From positions 1 through 64,000 of the forward strand of contig RGJX01000001.1 of assembly GCA_010023045.1 (NCBI GenBank): a stretch of 64,000 nucleotides of DNA. Direction: 5' to 3'. A program made the translations under genes and the position numbers. The DNA is from Actinomycetota bacterium (lineage in GTDB: Bacteria; Actinomycetota; Actinomycetes; Nanopelagicales; Nanopelagicaceae). The stretch's first letter is position 1; each line of letters opens with the position of its first letter. Below are positions 25,923 to 64,000 of the stretch, piece after piece. The notes under the pieces were generated by a model that was not told the origin of the DNA, did not search any database, and worked only from the letters and a program-made list of their open reading frames with translations.

Positions 25923-26405
25923 ATGAACGTGCTCGATGCGGTAGATGCCGCCTCCCTCCGCAAGGACATCCCCAACTTCCGCCCCGGCGATGAGTTAAAG
26001 GTCCACGTCCGAGTTATCGAAGGTAATAAGAGTCGTGTTCAGGTCTTCCAAGGTCTTGTGATTTCACGTCGTGGCTCCGGTATCCGCGAGACATTCACTG
26101 TCCGCAAAATCTCCTACGGTGTAGGAGTAGAGCGCGTCTTTCCAGTCCATGCACCTGTAATTGAAAAAATTGAATTGGTTCGTAAGGGCGAGGTGCGCCG
26201 TGCGAAACTTTATTATCTCCGCGACCTACGCGGTAAAGCTGCCAAGATTCGTGAGCGTCGCGGCGGCGAAGATCTCGAAGTGATTTATGCAGAGGCAGCG
26301 CCAGTTGTCGAGACTCCAGTAGTTGAAACTCCAGTAGTTGAGACTCCAGAAGCCGAACCTGAAGTTCAAGTTTCACAAGAGTCTTCAGAGAAGCCACAAG
26401 CTTAA
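25923..26405 (+). CDS. rplS: 50S ribosomal protein L19 with acidic C-terminal extension
   Basis: [60 protein letters not shown]. Confidence 0.96.
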
Positions 26406-57355: not shown

Positions 57356-59326
57356 TTAGCCTACTTTTGTGATTCGTCCATCAGCTTTAGGAGTCTGGGT
57401 GACTCGCTTAGCTGCTAGATCTGCCTTGATTCCATCAACCAATATGTCTAGCAATAACTTGCCAGGGAATTTAGCGGTAGAAGGATTTAGCATCGTATAA
57501 CCATCGCCTCCATAGAGCATGAAGTCGTTTGTGGCTACCGTGTAGGTCTTTGCATCTTTTGCGATTGCAGTTCCATCTAACTTAGTAACAGCAGTGATTC
57601 TTGATCCCACTGCTTTTGAAGTGTCGAAGGAGAACTTGAATCCAGAGATTTGCGGGAATCGACCACCGGATGGATGTTGCGAGACTCCATTTTCTAGAGC
57701 GGCCCAGAGCTGGGTTCCAGAAATTGTCGCAACAGCAACTGAGTTACCAAATGGAAGCACTGAGATTGCATCTCCGAGGGTCACATCAAATGGACCAGTA
57801 ACCCCGGCTGCGGGGCGCTTGTAAGTTGTATCGACAGCTTTGTAAGTAGCCGCTGGGAAGGTATCGCGTAGACCGCCACCATTTGTTAGCGCAAAGTCAG
57901 TCTTCAATTCCTTGCGCATCAAATCAGCGAGGTAATTACCCATTGGAGTTTCGCCAGCGCGCTCTACGGCAGGAGTACCGCCGCGTGGGAATAGTTCAGA
58001 AACTTGACCAATCTTTACATCAAGTTTGGTCACCAGTTGATCCTTATATTTATTAACGAGCGCCGCACCAGCTGTATCAGCGGTTACACCCTTTAGGTCA
58101 GCGGTTGTTACGTAGTCGAGGGATGCTCCCTGGACTCTGCTTCCACTTACGCAGAGCTGGATACGGTTGTAACCAACACCAGCATTTGGGGTTTGTGCGA
58201 TGAGAGTCGAGCCATAGCGAGCCGAAGTTCCCATGATGCTGCTGTAGCGCTGGTGGCTATGGCCACCAAGAACTGCTGCTGCACCCTTGATTCCCTTTGC
58301 GAGATCCAAGAGTTGGCCCTTTGCTAGCCCATCAGCGTTCTCTGACCAGCCGTAATGAAGTAGCGCTACAACAATGTCAGCGCCAGCGGACTTTGCATCC
58401 TTGATTGCTTGATTTACGCCAGCAACCGAGGCGGAGATTTGTAAGGTCTTCTTCGCACCACTTGCATCTGTGTAATCGAGGTTTCCAGGGAAAATTACCT
58501 CAGGTGTCTCATCGGTATTCATTCCGACAACGCCAACTTTTACTCCACCACGGTCGATAATCACATAACTCTTAGCTGCTTTTGTACCTGACTTAAGCGG
58601 CTCAAGGGAGCTGTAATTAGATGCGACCCAGGCAAAATCAGAAGCGCCGATGACTTTCTGGACGTGAGCGATATTTCTATCATGCTCATGATTTCCAAAT
58701 GTAGAGACATCGAACTTCATCAAATTCATTGATTCGATAGTTGGAAGTTCTTCGAATTGGCTTGAGATAGCCGGAGCTGCGCCAATATTGTCACCGCTTG
58801 AAAGAGTGATAGTTGAGGCAACAGCAGTTGCTGTGAAAGTCTTGCTCCACTTTGCAGCAGGTGAGAAGCCATAAGCATTTACAGCCTGCACATTTACAGT
58901 TGCAGAGGTCTGTCCTTCAAGAATCGGTAGTCGAACCGAACCGGATGTGGTTGCAGGTACGACAACTGGACATGATCCTTGTCCACCGGTAACTACATAG
59001 TGAGTTACCGCAGGTGATGCGCTAACAGGATTGAATCGGACACGGATACCGGCATCAGTTACATATGCCTTGGTGATGGTTGGTGCTGCAGGAACAGCAT
59101 AGGTATTTGCTGAGGCCTGCGGGGAAGTGAGCACTACGAGAGCGGATATCACTAGCGCGAGGGAGCTTGTGATGGCAGAGAGACGTACGCGGAGGGAGTT
59201 GCCCTGGGCGGACGTGGATGGCTTGTGTGTGATCACGGGCGGATACTCGCACCGCCTAGGTAAATAACTAGGTAAATAAGAGGCGAGCGGCTCGTGTCGG
59301 TTGGGCCAACATTCGTAGATCAGCAT
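57356..59326 (-). CDS. Secreted 5'-nucleotidase/metallophosphatase (UshA-like) with Fn3-like domain, lacking the first metal-binding motif
   Basis: SSGDNIGAAP, FGNHEHDRN, GGHSHQRY, C-terminal 5'-nucleotidase domain TNGGGLRDTF; expected D-x-H motif absent. Confidence 0.85.
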   Translation of the reverse strand: MLIYECWPNRHEPLASYLPSYLPRRCEYPPVITHKPSTSAQGNSLRVRLSAITSSLALVISALVVLTSPQASANTYAVPAAPTITKAYVTDAGIRVRFNPVSASPAVTHYVVTGGQGSCPVVVPATTSGSVRLPILEGQTSATVNVQAVNAYGFSPAAKWSKTFTATAVASTITLSSGDNIGAAPAISSQFEELPTIESMNLMKFDVSTFGNHEHDRNIAHVQKVIGASDFAWVASNYSSLEPLKSGTKAAKSYVIIDRGGVKVGVVGMNTDETPEVIFPGNLDYTDASGAKKTLQISASVAGVNQAIKDAKSAGADIVVALLHYGWSENADGLAKGQLLDLAKGIKGAAAVLGGHSHQRYSSIMGTSARYGSTLIAQTPNAGVGYNRIQLCVSGSRVQGASLDYVTTADLKGVTADTAGAALVNKYKDQLVTKLDVKIGQVSELFPRGGTPAVERAGETPMGNYLADLMRKELKTDFALTNGGGLRDTFPAATYKAVDTTYKRPAAGVTGPFDVTLGDAISVLPFGNSVAVATISGTQLWAALENGVSQHPSGGRFPQISGFKFSFDTSKAVGSRITAVTKLDGTAIAKDAKTYTVATNDFMLYGGDGYTMLNPSTAKFPGKLLLDILVDGIKADLAAKRVTQTPKADGRITKVG

Positions 59327-59356
59327 TTGCAGCCTGTCAGGCCCCTTCGCTAGGGT

Positions 59357-59372
59357 TCGAACAAATGTTCGA
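59357..59372. promoter_or_regulatory. SOS box (LexA site)
   Basis: TCGAACAAATGTTCGA, perfect match to TCGAACN4GTTCGA. Confidence 0.9.
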
Positions 59373-59667
59373 AAATCCTAACCCACCCCAGATATACCTA
59401 ATAGGCGGCGAGCCGGCTGAATTCACCTTCCGCGGCCAGCGCTTCCGTATCCATTCCGTTTTATCTTCTTGGCGCGAATCAGGTGGCTGGTGGAATCGAG
59501 CGAGCGATGGCTTCTATCGCCCCGATGATGGTGCGCGCATTCTCTGGCGAGTAGAGGCAGCCCCGATTGGAACGATGGCGACCTTCGAGATTGAACGCGA
59601 AGAGGTTATCGATCCTCGTAATCCAATCTGGCGGATAAGGCCGACCTCAAGATCTGCCAGCGCTTAA
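59365..59667 (+). CDS. DUF6504-like protein
   Basis: Short protein (FTFRGQRFRIHSVLSSWRESGGWWNRASDGFYRPDDGA) directly upstream of dnaE2. Confidence 0.75.
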   Translation: MFENPNPPQIYLIGGEPAEFTFRGQRFRIHSVLSSWRESGGWWNRASDGFYRPDDGARILWRVEAAPIGTMATFEIEREEVIDPRNPIWRIRPTSRSASA

Positions 59668-59668
59668 A

Positions 59669-59707
59669 GACATGAGCTTAGGGACATGAGCTTAAAGACA
59701 TGAGCTT
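59669..59707 (+). repeat. 14-bp tandem repeat, three copies of (G)ACATGAGCTT
   Basis: GACATGAGCTTAGG-GACATGAGCTTAAA-GACATGAGCTT read directly; ATGs at 59672, 59686, 59700. Confidence 0.95.
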
Positions 59708-62700
59708 CACACATCTACATGTAGCAAGTGGCTACTCATTTAAATATGGAACAAATCTTCCCGACCAACTAGTTGCTAGAGCTGGCGAGTTAGGGATGAA
59801 CGCACTTGCCCTAACTGATCGAGATACTCTCGCTGGCGCTATCCGTTTTGCCACAAGTTGCGAATTAAATTCAATCGCTCCGATTATCGGAATAGATATC
59901 GAGTATGAGAATCAATCTAGGTTGACACTTCTAGCTACTCCAAATAATTGGAGCTCGTTAGTTCGCCTAGTAACAGCGCTAAAACGACTTAGTTCACCTC
60001 CAGGCGCTGATTTCTTTATTGCTAATGAAAGTCACACAAAAAATCTTCTTCTATTGCATGGACCAAGCTCTGAGGTAAGCCTGGCGATTCTCTCGCGTCG
60101 TTACGATAAAGCGCTCGCAATCTTAAATAAGACTAGAGATATATTTAAAGATCAAGCTCTTGAGTGCGTCACTCATCTAGAGAGCGAGGGAATCCGATCT
60201 ACCGCACATGCTGCTAGAACCCTTGGATTTGCTAGAGATAATGATCTAAAAGTTGTATTAAGTAATGCCGTTCGAATGAGAGAACGTTTGGATGCCCCAA
60301 TCGCCGATATCTTGGATGCGACTCGAAATCTCTTGCCACTTCATCGCAGCGTTGTAGAGCGCAAGAACGCTGAGGCATTCTTGAAAAGTAGCGAGGAGAT
60401 GGCTTATTTAGCGGAGATTATCGCTAGGGCAGCCGGGGAGCGGAACGGAAGGCTTCTGCTTCGAACAACTAGAGAGTGGGCAGAATCGGCCCAACTATCG
60501 CCACGAATTGATATTGGAATCGGTTCGATTCACCTTCCCGAACCAAGCGTTGTTGGCGCATCTAGCCATGAAGAACTGGTGAACCAATTAAGAGAGCGTT
60601 CTTACTCAGGCATAAATTGGCGTTATGGAAGTGAAGTATCTAGCGATGTAATAGATCGATTGGAGAAAGAGCTACAGATAATCAAAACCCTTGGCTACGA
60701 GTCATATTTCCTAACTGTCGCAGACGTGACCGATCGCGCTCGTAACTCTGGAATCCGAGTCGCAGCCCGAGGGAGCGGCGCTGGTTCACTTGTCTGCCAC
60801 TTGCTTGGGATATCTGGGGTTGAGCCGCTATCACTTGGACTTCTCATGGAGCGATTTTGCTCGCCACTTAGAGCTGCGCTTCCTGATATCGATATCGATG
60901 TCGAATCAGCTCGCCGCCTTGAAATCTATGATCAAGTATTTGATTTCTATAAAGAGCGAGCCGCAACTGTTGCGATGTTTGATACATATCGCGCTCGCCA
61001 TGCGATTCGTGATGTTGGCGCCGCGCTCTCACTTCCACCAATGGAGATTGATTTAGTAGCAAAGTCGCTACCGCACATAAGAGCGCGAAATATAGGTAAA
61101 TCTCTAGAGAATCTGCCGGAACTTAAAACTCTAAATCTCACTTCGCCACTTTGGCGGATGGCGATTGGTTTGGCTGAACGACTAGATGGATTACCAAGAA
61201 ACCTTGCAATGCATCCTTGCGCTGTTGTCTTATCTGATATCGGTTTATATGACCGCGCTCCAATTGAAGAGAATGCAAGCGGCTACCCAATGATTCAATG
61301 GGATAAGGATGATGTAGAGGCAATCGGCTTATTGAAGCTGGACATCCTTGGGGTACGGATGCAATCCACGCTTGCCTATGCTGTTACTGAGATAGAGCGG
61401 AGCGCTAATAAGAAGATAGATATCGATTCGATACCTCTTGATGATGGCGCAACCTTCGAATTAATCCAATCAACTAAGACTCTAGGCCTATTCCAAATCG
61501 AGAGCCCTGGGCAACGTGAACTAGTAGGAAAGTTCGCACCCGAGAGCTTTAACGATCTGATAATCGATATCTCACTCTTCCGCCCCGGCCCGGTAAAGAG
61601 CGACATGATTACTCCATTCTTAAATAGCCGGCAGGGCTGGAAGCCAAGATCAATCATCCATCCTGATCTCGCCCCGATATTGAGTGATACCGAAGGGGTT
61701 GTCGTATTCCACGAACAGGTCATCGAAATCATCTCGACTATGACTGGAGTCTCGCTAGCTGAAGCTGATGAGAAGCGACGCGCTTTAGGTGATCGCGATA
61801 GCCAACAAGTTATCTGTGATTGGTTCTTTCCGGCTGCGCTTGCTCGCGGTTACTCATTAGCGGTGGTAACAGAAATTTGGGATGTGCTGCGCGCCTTTGC
61901 CTCCTTTGGTTTCTGTAAAGCTCATGCCGCAGCCTTTGCACTACCCACCTATCAATCTGCTTGGTTAAAAACCCACTACCCAGCTGCTTTTCTAGCTGGC
62001 GTCTTAACTCATGATCCAGGGATGTATCCAAAGCGATTAATCCTCGATGAGGTCCGCCAATGCGGGATAAAGATCGCCCCAATTGATATCAACCGCTCAG
62101 ATAGGAGCTATCGAGTAGAGGCTGGCGCGATTCGAATTGCTCTATCTGATGTGAGCGGCATTAGCGATAACGAGGTTGATTCGATAATGAAAGCCCGGCC
62201 ATTTCTAGATCTCGCTGACTTCGTACATAGAGCTGAAGTAAGTAAGCCGATTACCGAATCTCTACTTATGGTCGGAGCTTTTGACTCTTTATATGAAACT
62301 AACCTGAATCGTCGCGATCTATTACTCCACTTAAATGATTTATATAAGTGGTCGCGCTCAACAAGTAAAACCAGTAGCTCCCAACTAACTATGGCCTTTA
62401 CGCCATCGCTAGTTAAAAGTGGTCTACCTGATCTGAGAAGTGATGAATTGGTAAAGCATGAGATTGAGCATCTAAATATGGATATCTCACATCACATGAT
62501 TGAGTTCTACTCTAATTTCTTAAATGAGATTGGTGCGGTTCGCTCAAGCGATTTATTAAAGCAACGCTCTAAATCTCAAGTCCTTGTCGCTGGAGTAAAA
62601 GTAGCGCTACAAACTCCGCCCGTAAGATCAGGCAAGCGAGTTATGTTTTTAACCCTCGATGATGGCTTTGGTTGTAGCGATGCCACTTTCTTTGAAGATA

Positions 62701-62861
62701 CCCAAAAATCCTATGCAAGTACGCTTCTTAACTCTCAGCTCTTATTAGTTCGAGGAGAGATAAGAAGAACCGGACCTAGGGGAGTCTCGCTCCGCGCCAC
62801 CGGGGCATGGGGACTACTAGATGCCTATGAAAAGTGGCGTAATCTCGCATCTTGTGAGTGA
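59700..62861 (+). CDS. dnaE2: Error-prone DNA polymerase III alpha subunit (DnaE2/ImuC type)
   Basis: PHP domain THLHVASGYSFKYG; VAARGSGAGSLVCHLLGI, LPDIDIDVESARR; CKAHAAAFALPTYQSAWLKTHYPAAF. Confidence 0.92.
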   Translation: MSFTHLHVASGYSFKYGTNLPDQLVARAGELGMNALALTDRDTLAGAIRFATSCELNSIAPIIGIDIEYENQSRLTLLATPNNWSSLVRLVTALKRLSSPPGADFFIANESHTKNLLLLHGPSSEVSLAILSRRYDKALAILNKTRDIFKDQALECVTHLESEGIRSTAHAARTLGFARDNDLKVVLSNAVRMRERLDAPIADILDATRNLLPLHRSVVERKNAEAFLKSSEEMAYLAEIIARAAGERNGRLLLRTTREWAESAQLSPRIDIGIGSIHLPEPSVVGASSHEELVNQLRERSYSGINWRYGSEVSSDVIDRLEKELQIIKTLGYESYFLTVADVTDRARNSGIRVAARGSGAGSLVCHLLGISGVEPLSLGLLMERFCSPLRAALPDIDIDVESARRLEIYDQVFDFYKERAATVAMFDTYRARHAIRDVGAALSLPPMEIDLVAKSLPHIRARNIGKSLENLPELKTLNLTSPLWRMAIGLAERLDGLPRNLAMHPCAVVLSDIGLYDRAPIEENASGYPMIQWDKDDVEAIGLLKLDILGVRMQSTLAYAVTEIERSANKKIDIDSIPLDDGATFELIQSTKTLGLFQIESPGQRELVGKFAPESFNDLIIDISLFRPGPVKSDMITPFLNSRQGWKPRSIIHPDLAPILSDTEGVVVFHEQVIEIISTMTGVSLAEADEKRRALGDRDSQQVICDWFFPAALARGYSLAVVTEIWDVLRAFASFGFCKAHAAAFALPTYQSAWLKTHYPAAFLAGVLTHDPGMYPKRLILDEVRQCGIKIAPIDINRSDRSYRVEAGAIRIALSDVSGISDNEVDSIMKARPFLDLADFVHRAEVSKPITESLLMVGAFDSLYETNLNRRDLLLHLNDLYKWSRSTSKTSSSQLTMAFTPSLVKSGLPDLRSDELVKHEIEHLNMDISHHMIEFYSNFLNEIGAVRSSDLLKQRSKSQVLVAGVKVALQTPPVRSGKRVMFLTLDDGFGCSDATFFEDTQKSYASTLLNSQLLLVRGEIRRTGPRGVSLRATGAWGLLDAYEKWRNLASCE

Positions 62862-62865
62862 AGCA

Positions 62866-64000
62866 ATGAGAGAGCGCTCCACAATCCTCCATGTAGATAT
62901 GGATGCATTCTTTGCCTCGGTATCTGAACTTGACTACCCGCAATACCGTGGAAAACCGCTAGTCGTAGGAGCTGGAGCGAGGGGAGTAGTTCTCTCTGCA
63001 AATTACCTGGCGCGAAAGTTCGGCATTCGCGCTGCCATGCCGGTATCGCGAGCGCAACGCATGGCCCCAACGGCGGTATTCATCCCGCCTGATCATGAAC
63101 GTTATTCCGAAGTCTCACGAAGAGTTATGGAGATTTTCTTTGATTTCACTCCTCATGTCGAACCACTATCACTTGATGAAGCCTTCCTTGATGTAAGTGG
63201 TTCGAAGCGATTATTTGGTGAGGGAAGAGATATTGCAGCCCAGATTAGAAAACGCGTTAAAGAGCAAGAACGGATTACATGTTCGGTCGGAATTGCGAGT
63301 TCAAAATTCATCGCAAAATTAGCCTCTGGAAGATGTAAACCTGATGGCATGCTGGAGATTCAAGATGAGCGGGTTCTTACATTCTTACATCCACTTCCGG
63401 TAGGGGAGTTGTGGGGTGTTGGACCAAAGACAAATGAAGAGCTACAAAGATTGGGATTGCGCACTGTTGGAGAGATTGCCAACACTCCATTAGCGACCCT
63501 AAAGCGCGCCCTTGGTGATGGAGCCGGGGAGTCTCTCTACGAATTGGCTTGGGGTAGAGATTTTCGAGAGGTAATAACGGACTCTCCCGAGAAGAGCATT
63601 AGCGCTGCTGAGACTTTTGCATATGACTTAGAGGATCGCGAAGAGATTTTCCGTGAATTGCTCCGACTTTCGGAGCGAGCGACCCATCGAATGCGAAAGC
63701 GCGAATTGAGAGCCAGAACAATCGGATTAAAGGTCCGTTTCTCCGACTTTACAAATACCACCAAGTCAAAAACTCTCCCCCTTCCCATAAATGGGATGCA
63801 TGAGGTATTTGAAGTTGCGCGCGATCTCTTTACCTCTTTGAGATTAGATGGCTCGAGAATTCGACTTCTTGGAGTATCGCTAGAAAATTTAGTTGACGAG
63901 GAGGGCGCAGTCGAACAATTACTTTTGGGCGAGCGCGAGAGCGGTTGGCGTGAGGCGCAAGTCGCGATTGATCGAGCAATCACCAGATTCGGTAGCGGTT
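62866..64000 (+). CDS. dinB: DNA polymerase IV (DinB, Y-family), 3' end outside window
   Basis: Open to window end, hence not in ORF track: MRERSTILHVDMDAFFASVSELDYPQYRGKPLVVGAGARGVVLSANYLARKFGIRAAMP...PLSLDEAFLDVSGS...CSVGIASSKFIAKLAS...WGVGPKT. Confidence 0.95.
   Translation, partial: MRERSTILHVDMDAFFASVSELDYPQYRGKPLVVGAGARGVVLSANYLARKFGIRAAMPVSRAQRMAPTAVFIPPDHERYSEVSRRVMEIFFDFTPHVEPLSLDEAFLDVSGSKRLFGEGRDIAAQIRKRVKEQERITCSVGIASSKFIAKLASGRCKPDGMLEIQDERVLTFLHPLPVGELWGVGPKTNEELQRLGLRTVGEIANTPLATLKRALGDGAGESLYELAWGRDFREVITDSPEKSISAAETFAYDLEDREEIFRELLRLSERATHRMRKRELRARTIGLKVRFSDFTNTTKSKTLPLPINGMHEVFEVARDLFTSLRLDGSRIRLLGVSLENLVDEEGAVEQLLLGERESGWREAQVAIDRAITRFGSG

Follow-up and report, generated by a model that had tools for sequence, protein, structure and literature searches.

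A 14-bp tandem array at the DUF6504-dnaE2 junction of an actinobacterial genome and its possible mini-ORF relay

The window analysed here, a stretch of 64,000 nucleotides, harbored a tandem array of 14-bp units that forms the junction between the DUF6504 gene and dnaE2 and generates two five-codon mini-ORFs in front of the polymerase gene. With modest confidence, we infer that it arose by slipped-strand duplication at a tolerant junction, and that translation of the mini-ORFs acts as a relay preserving the coupling of DUF6504 and dnaE2, the array being near neutral.

The array (positions 59662 to 59707, forward strand) was composed of 3.3 copies of GCTTAAAGACATGA with a period of 14, as obtained by tandem-repeat detection and genome search. 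Its score of 78 was the highest among all tandem arrays of the window, and the genome search found it only once genome-wide. The detector cut-off of 11 was reached at none of the other 54 gene starts and 55 gene ends of the window, and no copies of the array were found in the viral contigs searched. An earlier note on this DNA had recognised the 14-bp triplication but gave it a slightly short extent, the array beginning at 59662 with GCTTAAA, and did not mention that the DUF6504 stop TAA (59665-59667) lies inside the first repeat copy. Its placement of ATGs at 59672, 59686 and 59700 in three different frames was confirmed by reading the sequence, as were the products MSLGT* and MSLKT* with their ATGA overlaps, TGA 59687-59689 lying over the second ATG and TGA 59701-59703 over the third. 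Both mini-ORFs were predicted by sequence reading only. The first (59672 to 59689, forward strand) begins 4 nt past the DUF6504 stop and the second (59686 to 59703, forward strand) shares ATGA overlaps with mini-ORF 1 and with dnaE2.

The DUF6504 gene (59365 to 59667, forward strand; open reading frame, Pfam PF20114, E 4e-10) is the first of the operon. The following gene, dnaE2 (59700 to 62861, forward strand), encodes an error-prone C-family DNA polymerase of 1053 aa displaying PHP, C-family polymerase alpha, finger, HHH and OB domains (Pfam PF07733, PF17657, PF02811, PF14579 and PF01336), and its start MSFTHLH was kept across the genus. Four nt past the dnaE2 stop, a dinB-type Y-family polymerase gene (62866 to 63999, forward strand; Pfam PF00817 and PF11799, junction alignment) begins and continues beyond the window. 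DUF6504 and dnaE2 probably constitute one operon and would be co-transcribed. In nearly all surveyed family members DUF6504 was located immediately 5' of dnaE2, downstream of a LexA box. No mention of DUF6504 was found in the literature searched; it is possibly an uncharacterised partner of translesion polymerases.

The predicted LexA/SOS box TTCGAACAAATGTTCGAA (59356 to 59373, forward strand) was a perfect match to the Streptomyces LexA motif, tCGAAC-N4-GNNCGa (PMC9380542), and includes the ATG of DUF6504. The LexA core was found in 94 of 96 family loci, and a start codon within it was in frame with DUF6504 in 88 of 89. These start-containing cores were nearly all CGAACAAATGTTCG or CGAACATATGTTCG and held the sole in-frame start found in 41 loci, while related loci with CGAACATCTGTTCG usually displayed an in-frame ATG about 40-47 nt past the box start instead. 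TAGGGT (59351 to 59356, forward strand) is a candidate -10 element of the form TANNNT, which occurred at one fixed offset upstream of the core in 79 of 89 start-containing loci and in 47 of 49 whose box lacks an ATG. Given the usual -10 spacing, the transcript would be expected to start about 2 nt 5' of the ATG. The arrangement suggests that the SOS operon is leaderless, with its first start codon within the LexA operator, and this leaderless appearance strengthens the view of an operon running without Shine-Dalgarno sites. With a predicted box at its promoter and domains identifying both dnaE2 and a Y-family polymerase, the locus can be classed as a putative LexA/SOS translesion operon. It resembles the LexA-controlled dnaE2-dinP operon of Streptomyces (PMC9380542; DinB2-DnaE2, PMC6511836) in combining an SOS box with dnaE2 and a dinB-type gene, and differs from dnaE2-dinP (PMC9380542) by the DUF6504 gene before dnaE2, the first start codon in the box and the array at the dnaE2 start.

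The nearest named relatives were 'Candidatus Nanopelagicaceae' metagenome-assembled genomes. DnaE2 gave a match in all 60 relatives searched, although for part of them the match was solely to a different C-family alpha subunit. The close-clade tree placed the window genome (G000) outside a group composed of G016 and the pair G013 and G019, with full support. Array copies in G000, G016, G013 and G019 numbered three, three, one and one, respectively; one genome per species was compared, and the copy-number variation seen is between species. The three copies of G016 were located at the same place and displayed AAAAAC spacers. Units ended before the ATG with GAC in all three window units and with AAC in all G016 units, and the two array-bearing species differed only in the 4-nt spacer and the left end. 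In both, ACATGAGCTT was intact in every copy at a period of 14, a retention compatible with constraint and also with recent duplication. In G002, one step further out, DUF6504 and dnaE2 overlapped by -4 through ATGA, and the repeat was missing. A pattern search recovered the array in two of 296 order members; a third match, in G124, had two mismatches and was on a different contig from the dnaE2 of that genome. The earlier note had held that a repeat absent or random in relatives and without effect in reporters would speak against its reading, and the part on relatives applies, the array being absent from nearly all of them.

Two histories accounted for this distribution with equal counts of copy-number events. 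In one, the array expanded twice independently; in the other, it was already present in the ancestor and underwent one contraction and homogenisation. In both cases the array turns over between species. It is proposed to have started from one copy of the dnaE2 start region, GCTTAAARACATGAGCTT, the form present in sister species, and to have arisen by duplicating this region twice. G013 and G019 both displayed a one-copy state, which in G019 (GCTTAAAAACATGAGCTT) included two GCTT tracts 14 nt apart; slippage between two such tracts would produce the exact unit, and the dnaE2 frame would be preserved whatever the copy number. Family junction segments reached the detector cut-off in nine of 151 cases versus three of 300 flanking segments of the same loci, counts that come from related loci and are not fully independent. 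The DUF6504-dnaE2 junction tolerates repeats.

The mini-ORF chain can be explained by the period of the duplication. The dnaE2 start region was duplicated in silico at every length from 6 to 23. All 3k+2 periods including ATGA yielded a mini-ORF in -4 overlap with the true start, 3k periods fused an upstream ATG in frame with dnaE2, and 3k+1 periods mostly gave an out-of-frame run into dnaE2, or a stop just before it. Two coupled five-codon ORFs resulted here because dnaE2 begins with ATGA and the period of 14 is 3x4+2. As a by-product of 3k+2 duplication and a one-in-three arithmetic outcome, the ATGA chain is not evidence of design; nor are the two mini-ORFs two extra coincidences beyond the duplication itself. 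Caution is advisable in similar cases, as a pretty mini-ORF chain can come automatically from tandem duplication of an ATGA start.

Spacing at the junction was tight throughout the family. Among 97 loci, the DUF6504-dnaE2 gap was -4 in 25, -1 in four and another overlap in eight, while it amounted to 0-10 nt in 31, 11-20 nt in 21, 21-40 nt in eight and more than 40 nt in none. Shine-Dalgarno-like 4-mers were encountered at seven of 99 family dnaE2 starts and seven of 54 window gene starts, and this rarity implies that genes here normally rely on coupling or on Shine-Dalgarno-less initiation. In E. coli, reinitiation drops by 40-80% with a 14-nt gap and is (almost) abolished with 38 nt, and 15 nt from the end of the upstream gene are enough for it (PMC10666635). 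Because published reinitiation is strongly distance-dependent, coupling should be weaker across a bare gap of 32 nt; the distances were established in E. coli and Haloferax, outside the host lineage.

The mini-ORFs turn this single 32-nt gap into hops of +4, -4 and -4 nt, which correspond to the overlap or few-nt spacing of termination-reinitiation pairs, whereas the direct gap would not. Ribosomes finishing DUF6504 at TAA 59665 would restart at ATG 59672 (+4 nt) and, after each further termination, first at 59686 (-4 nt) and then at dnaE2 59700 (-4 nt). Consequently dnaE2 would probably stay coupled to DUF6504 with somewhat reduced efficiency. Relay through these hops would be the best-supported mechanism. 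The termination-reinitiation chain claimed in the earlier note was retained as far as the junction type is concerned, since tight gaps and rare Shine-Dalgarno motifs allow reinitiation, but the chain itself is the 3k+2 by-product described above. Known ATGA coupling (PMC6728339, PMC10666635) likewise displays a -4 nt TGA/ATG overlap, little or no Shine-Dalgarno sequence and genes in series; here, in contrast, the five-codon mini-ORFs were made by duplication, stand two in series between real genes and are known from sequence alone. If the relay works, it constitutes a natural test of serial ribosome reinitiation in a freshwater actinobacterial operon that encodes a mutagenic polymerase under SOS control, and also of how small operon-junction duplications become tolerated.

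A bridging test addressed whether long DUF6504-dnaE2 gaps are generally crossed by ATG mini-ORFs, relatives being collapsed in the final set. Bridging was observed in six of 29 cases of a first set versus 2.4 expected (P 0.03), with a criterion set after viewing the data. In a second set, comprising 52 junctions, the count was four of 11, of which L172 and L157 were mis-mapped DUF6504 stops; the mini-ORF of L192 was the same as in L132. After cleaning and collapsing, six of 30 were bridged versus 2.6 expected (P 0.03), and five of 29 versus 2.3 (P 0.07) when the window locus was left out. The excess of bridging mini-ORFs across the family is weak and marginal, and was not taken as proof. Five relatives (L092, L101, L029, L099 and L084) displayed gaps of 22-31 nt without ATG mini-ORF, which implies that bridging is not required. 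L132 (G219) and L192 (G172), from two species, harbored an identical non-repeat five-codon mini-ORF, MRHQV*, located 2 nt past the DUF6504 stop and overlapping dnaE2 by ATGA.

A more general serial relay can be put forward tentatively. ATGA-start copies would then serve as stepping stones, a junction-lengthening duplication would repair its own coupling, and duplications of 3k+2 lengths would be those that survive. Further instances would be the 11-bp duplication of G084 (3k+2) and the unrelated bridging mini-ORFs of G219/G172, G081 and G202.

Pure neutral duplication, in which dnaE2 is initiated independently at its own ATG without a Shine-Dalgarno site and the mini-ORFs go untranslated or have no bearing, is possible although rather doubtful. 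It is consistent with the restriction of the array to two of 296 order members, with the relatives tolerating 22-31 nt gaps devoid of any mini-ORF, and with a chain that follows automatically from the period at a junction where other repeats are tolerated. It fits less well with the tight or overlapping junction maintained family-wide, never beyond 40 nt, and with ACATGAGCTT and the period of 14 being intact in every copy of both array-bearing species.

Phase variation of dnaE2, as suggested in the earlier note, was not borne out: copy-number change leaves dnaE2 with its own ATG and its frame unmoved. Phase-variable loci switch by frame or promoter spacing, and the array displayed neither, being downstream of the first gene and outside the promoter. 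On/off switching by frame was excluded by inspection, the dnaE2 ATG being retained at any copy number. The number of hops may have a graded effect on dnaE2 expression. A contingency locus, whose copy number would tune or phase-vary dnaE2 and hence the mutation rate, nevertheless seems improbable. Close species do differ in copy number (3, 3, 1 and 1), the GCTT tracts and the near identity of the units make slippage more likely, and reinitiation should fall with each added hop; but a frame switch is impossible, only three copies are present, internal mismatches in the window would reduce slippage, and the array is absent from other relatives. TAACTGA repeats of Beggiatoaceae (PMC4679880) are comparable tandem repeats in the translation initiation region, the G tract of Moraxella catarrhalis uspA1 being cited there as another repeat upstream of a start codon. 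Unlike the TAACTGA repeats, which are genome-wide, the array described here is restricted to a single locus and its 14-nt unit includes the start codon.

A structural attenuator, in which adjacent copies would pair through an AGCU palindrome (UGAGCUUA with UGAGCUUA) and hide the starts, is very unlikely: the minimum-energy fold does pair copies, and its energy is lower with three copies than with a single one, but it did not surpass shuffled sequences (z -1.16; 24 of 200 shuffles equally good) and the centroid structure was not the same as this fold. An assembly or sequencing artefact, conceivable in a draft genome of 121 contigs, can practically be dismissed because the units differ internally (AAAG/AGGG/AAAG) and the separately assembled sister species G016 has its own triplet at this position, equal in copy number but different in its spacer bases. 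Slipped-strand duplication followed by a mini-ORF relay is the reading we prefer.

Several other small repeats were encountered. Among relatives, L113 (G084) displayed an 11-bp x2 duplication at the dnaE2 start, which creates ATG-TAA, and L030 (G032) a 10-bp x5 repeat at the same position, no DUF6504 being found upstream in G032. L103 (G071) harbored a 10-bp x2 duplication spanning the DUF6504 stop, and G309 and G030 displayed 12-bp repeats within the DUF6504 tail. In the window, the divergent region upstream of the 5'-nucleotidase-like gene harbored a perfect tandem duplication of 12 bp, CTAGGTAAATAA, at positions 59256-59279, and positions 26301-26349 are occupied by a 15-bp x3.3 array, CCAGTAGTTGAGACT, which is probably a coding repeat.
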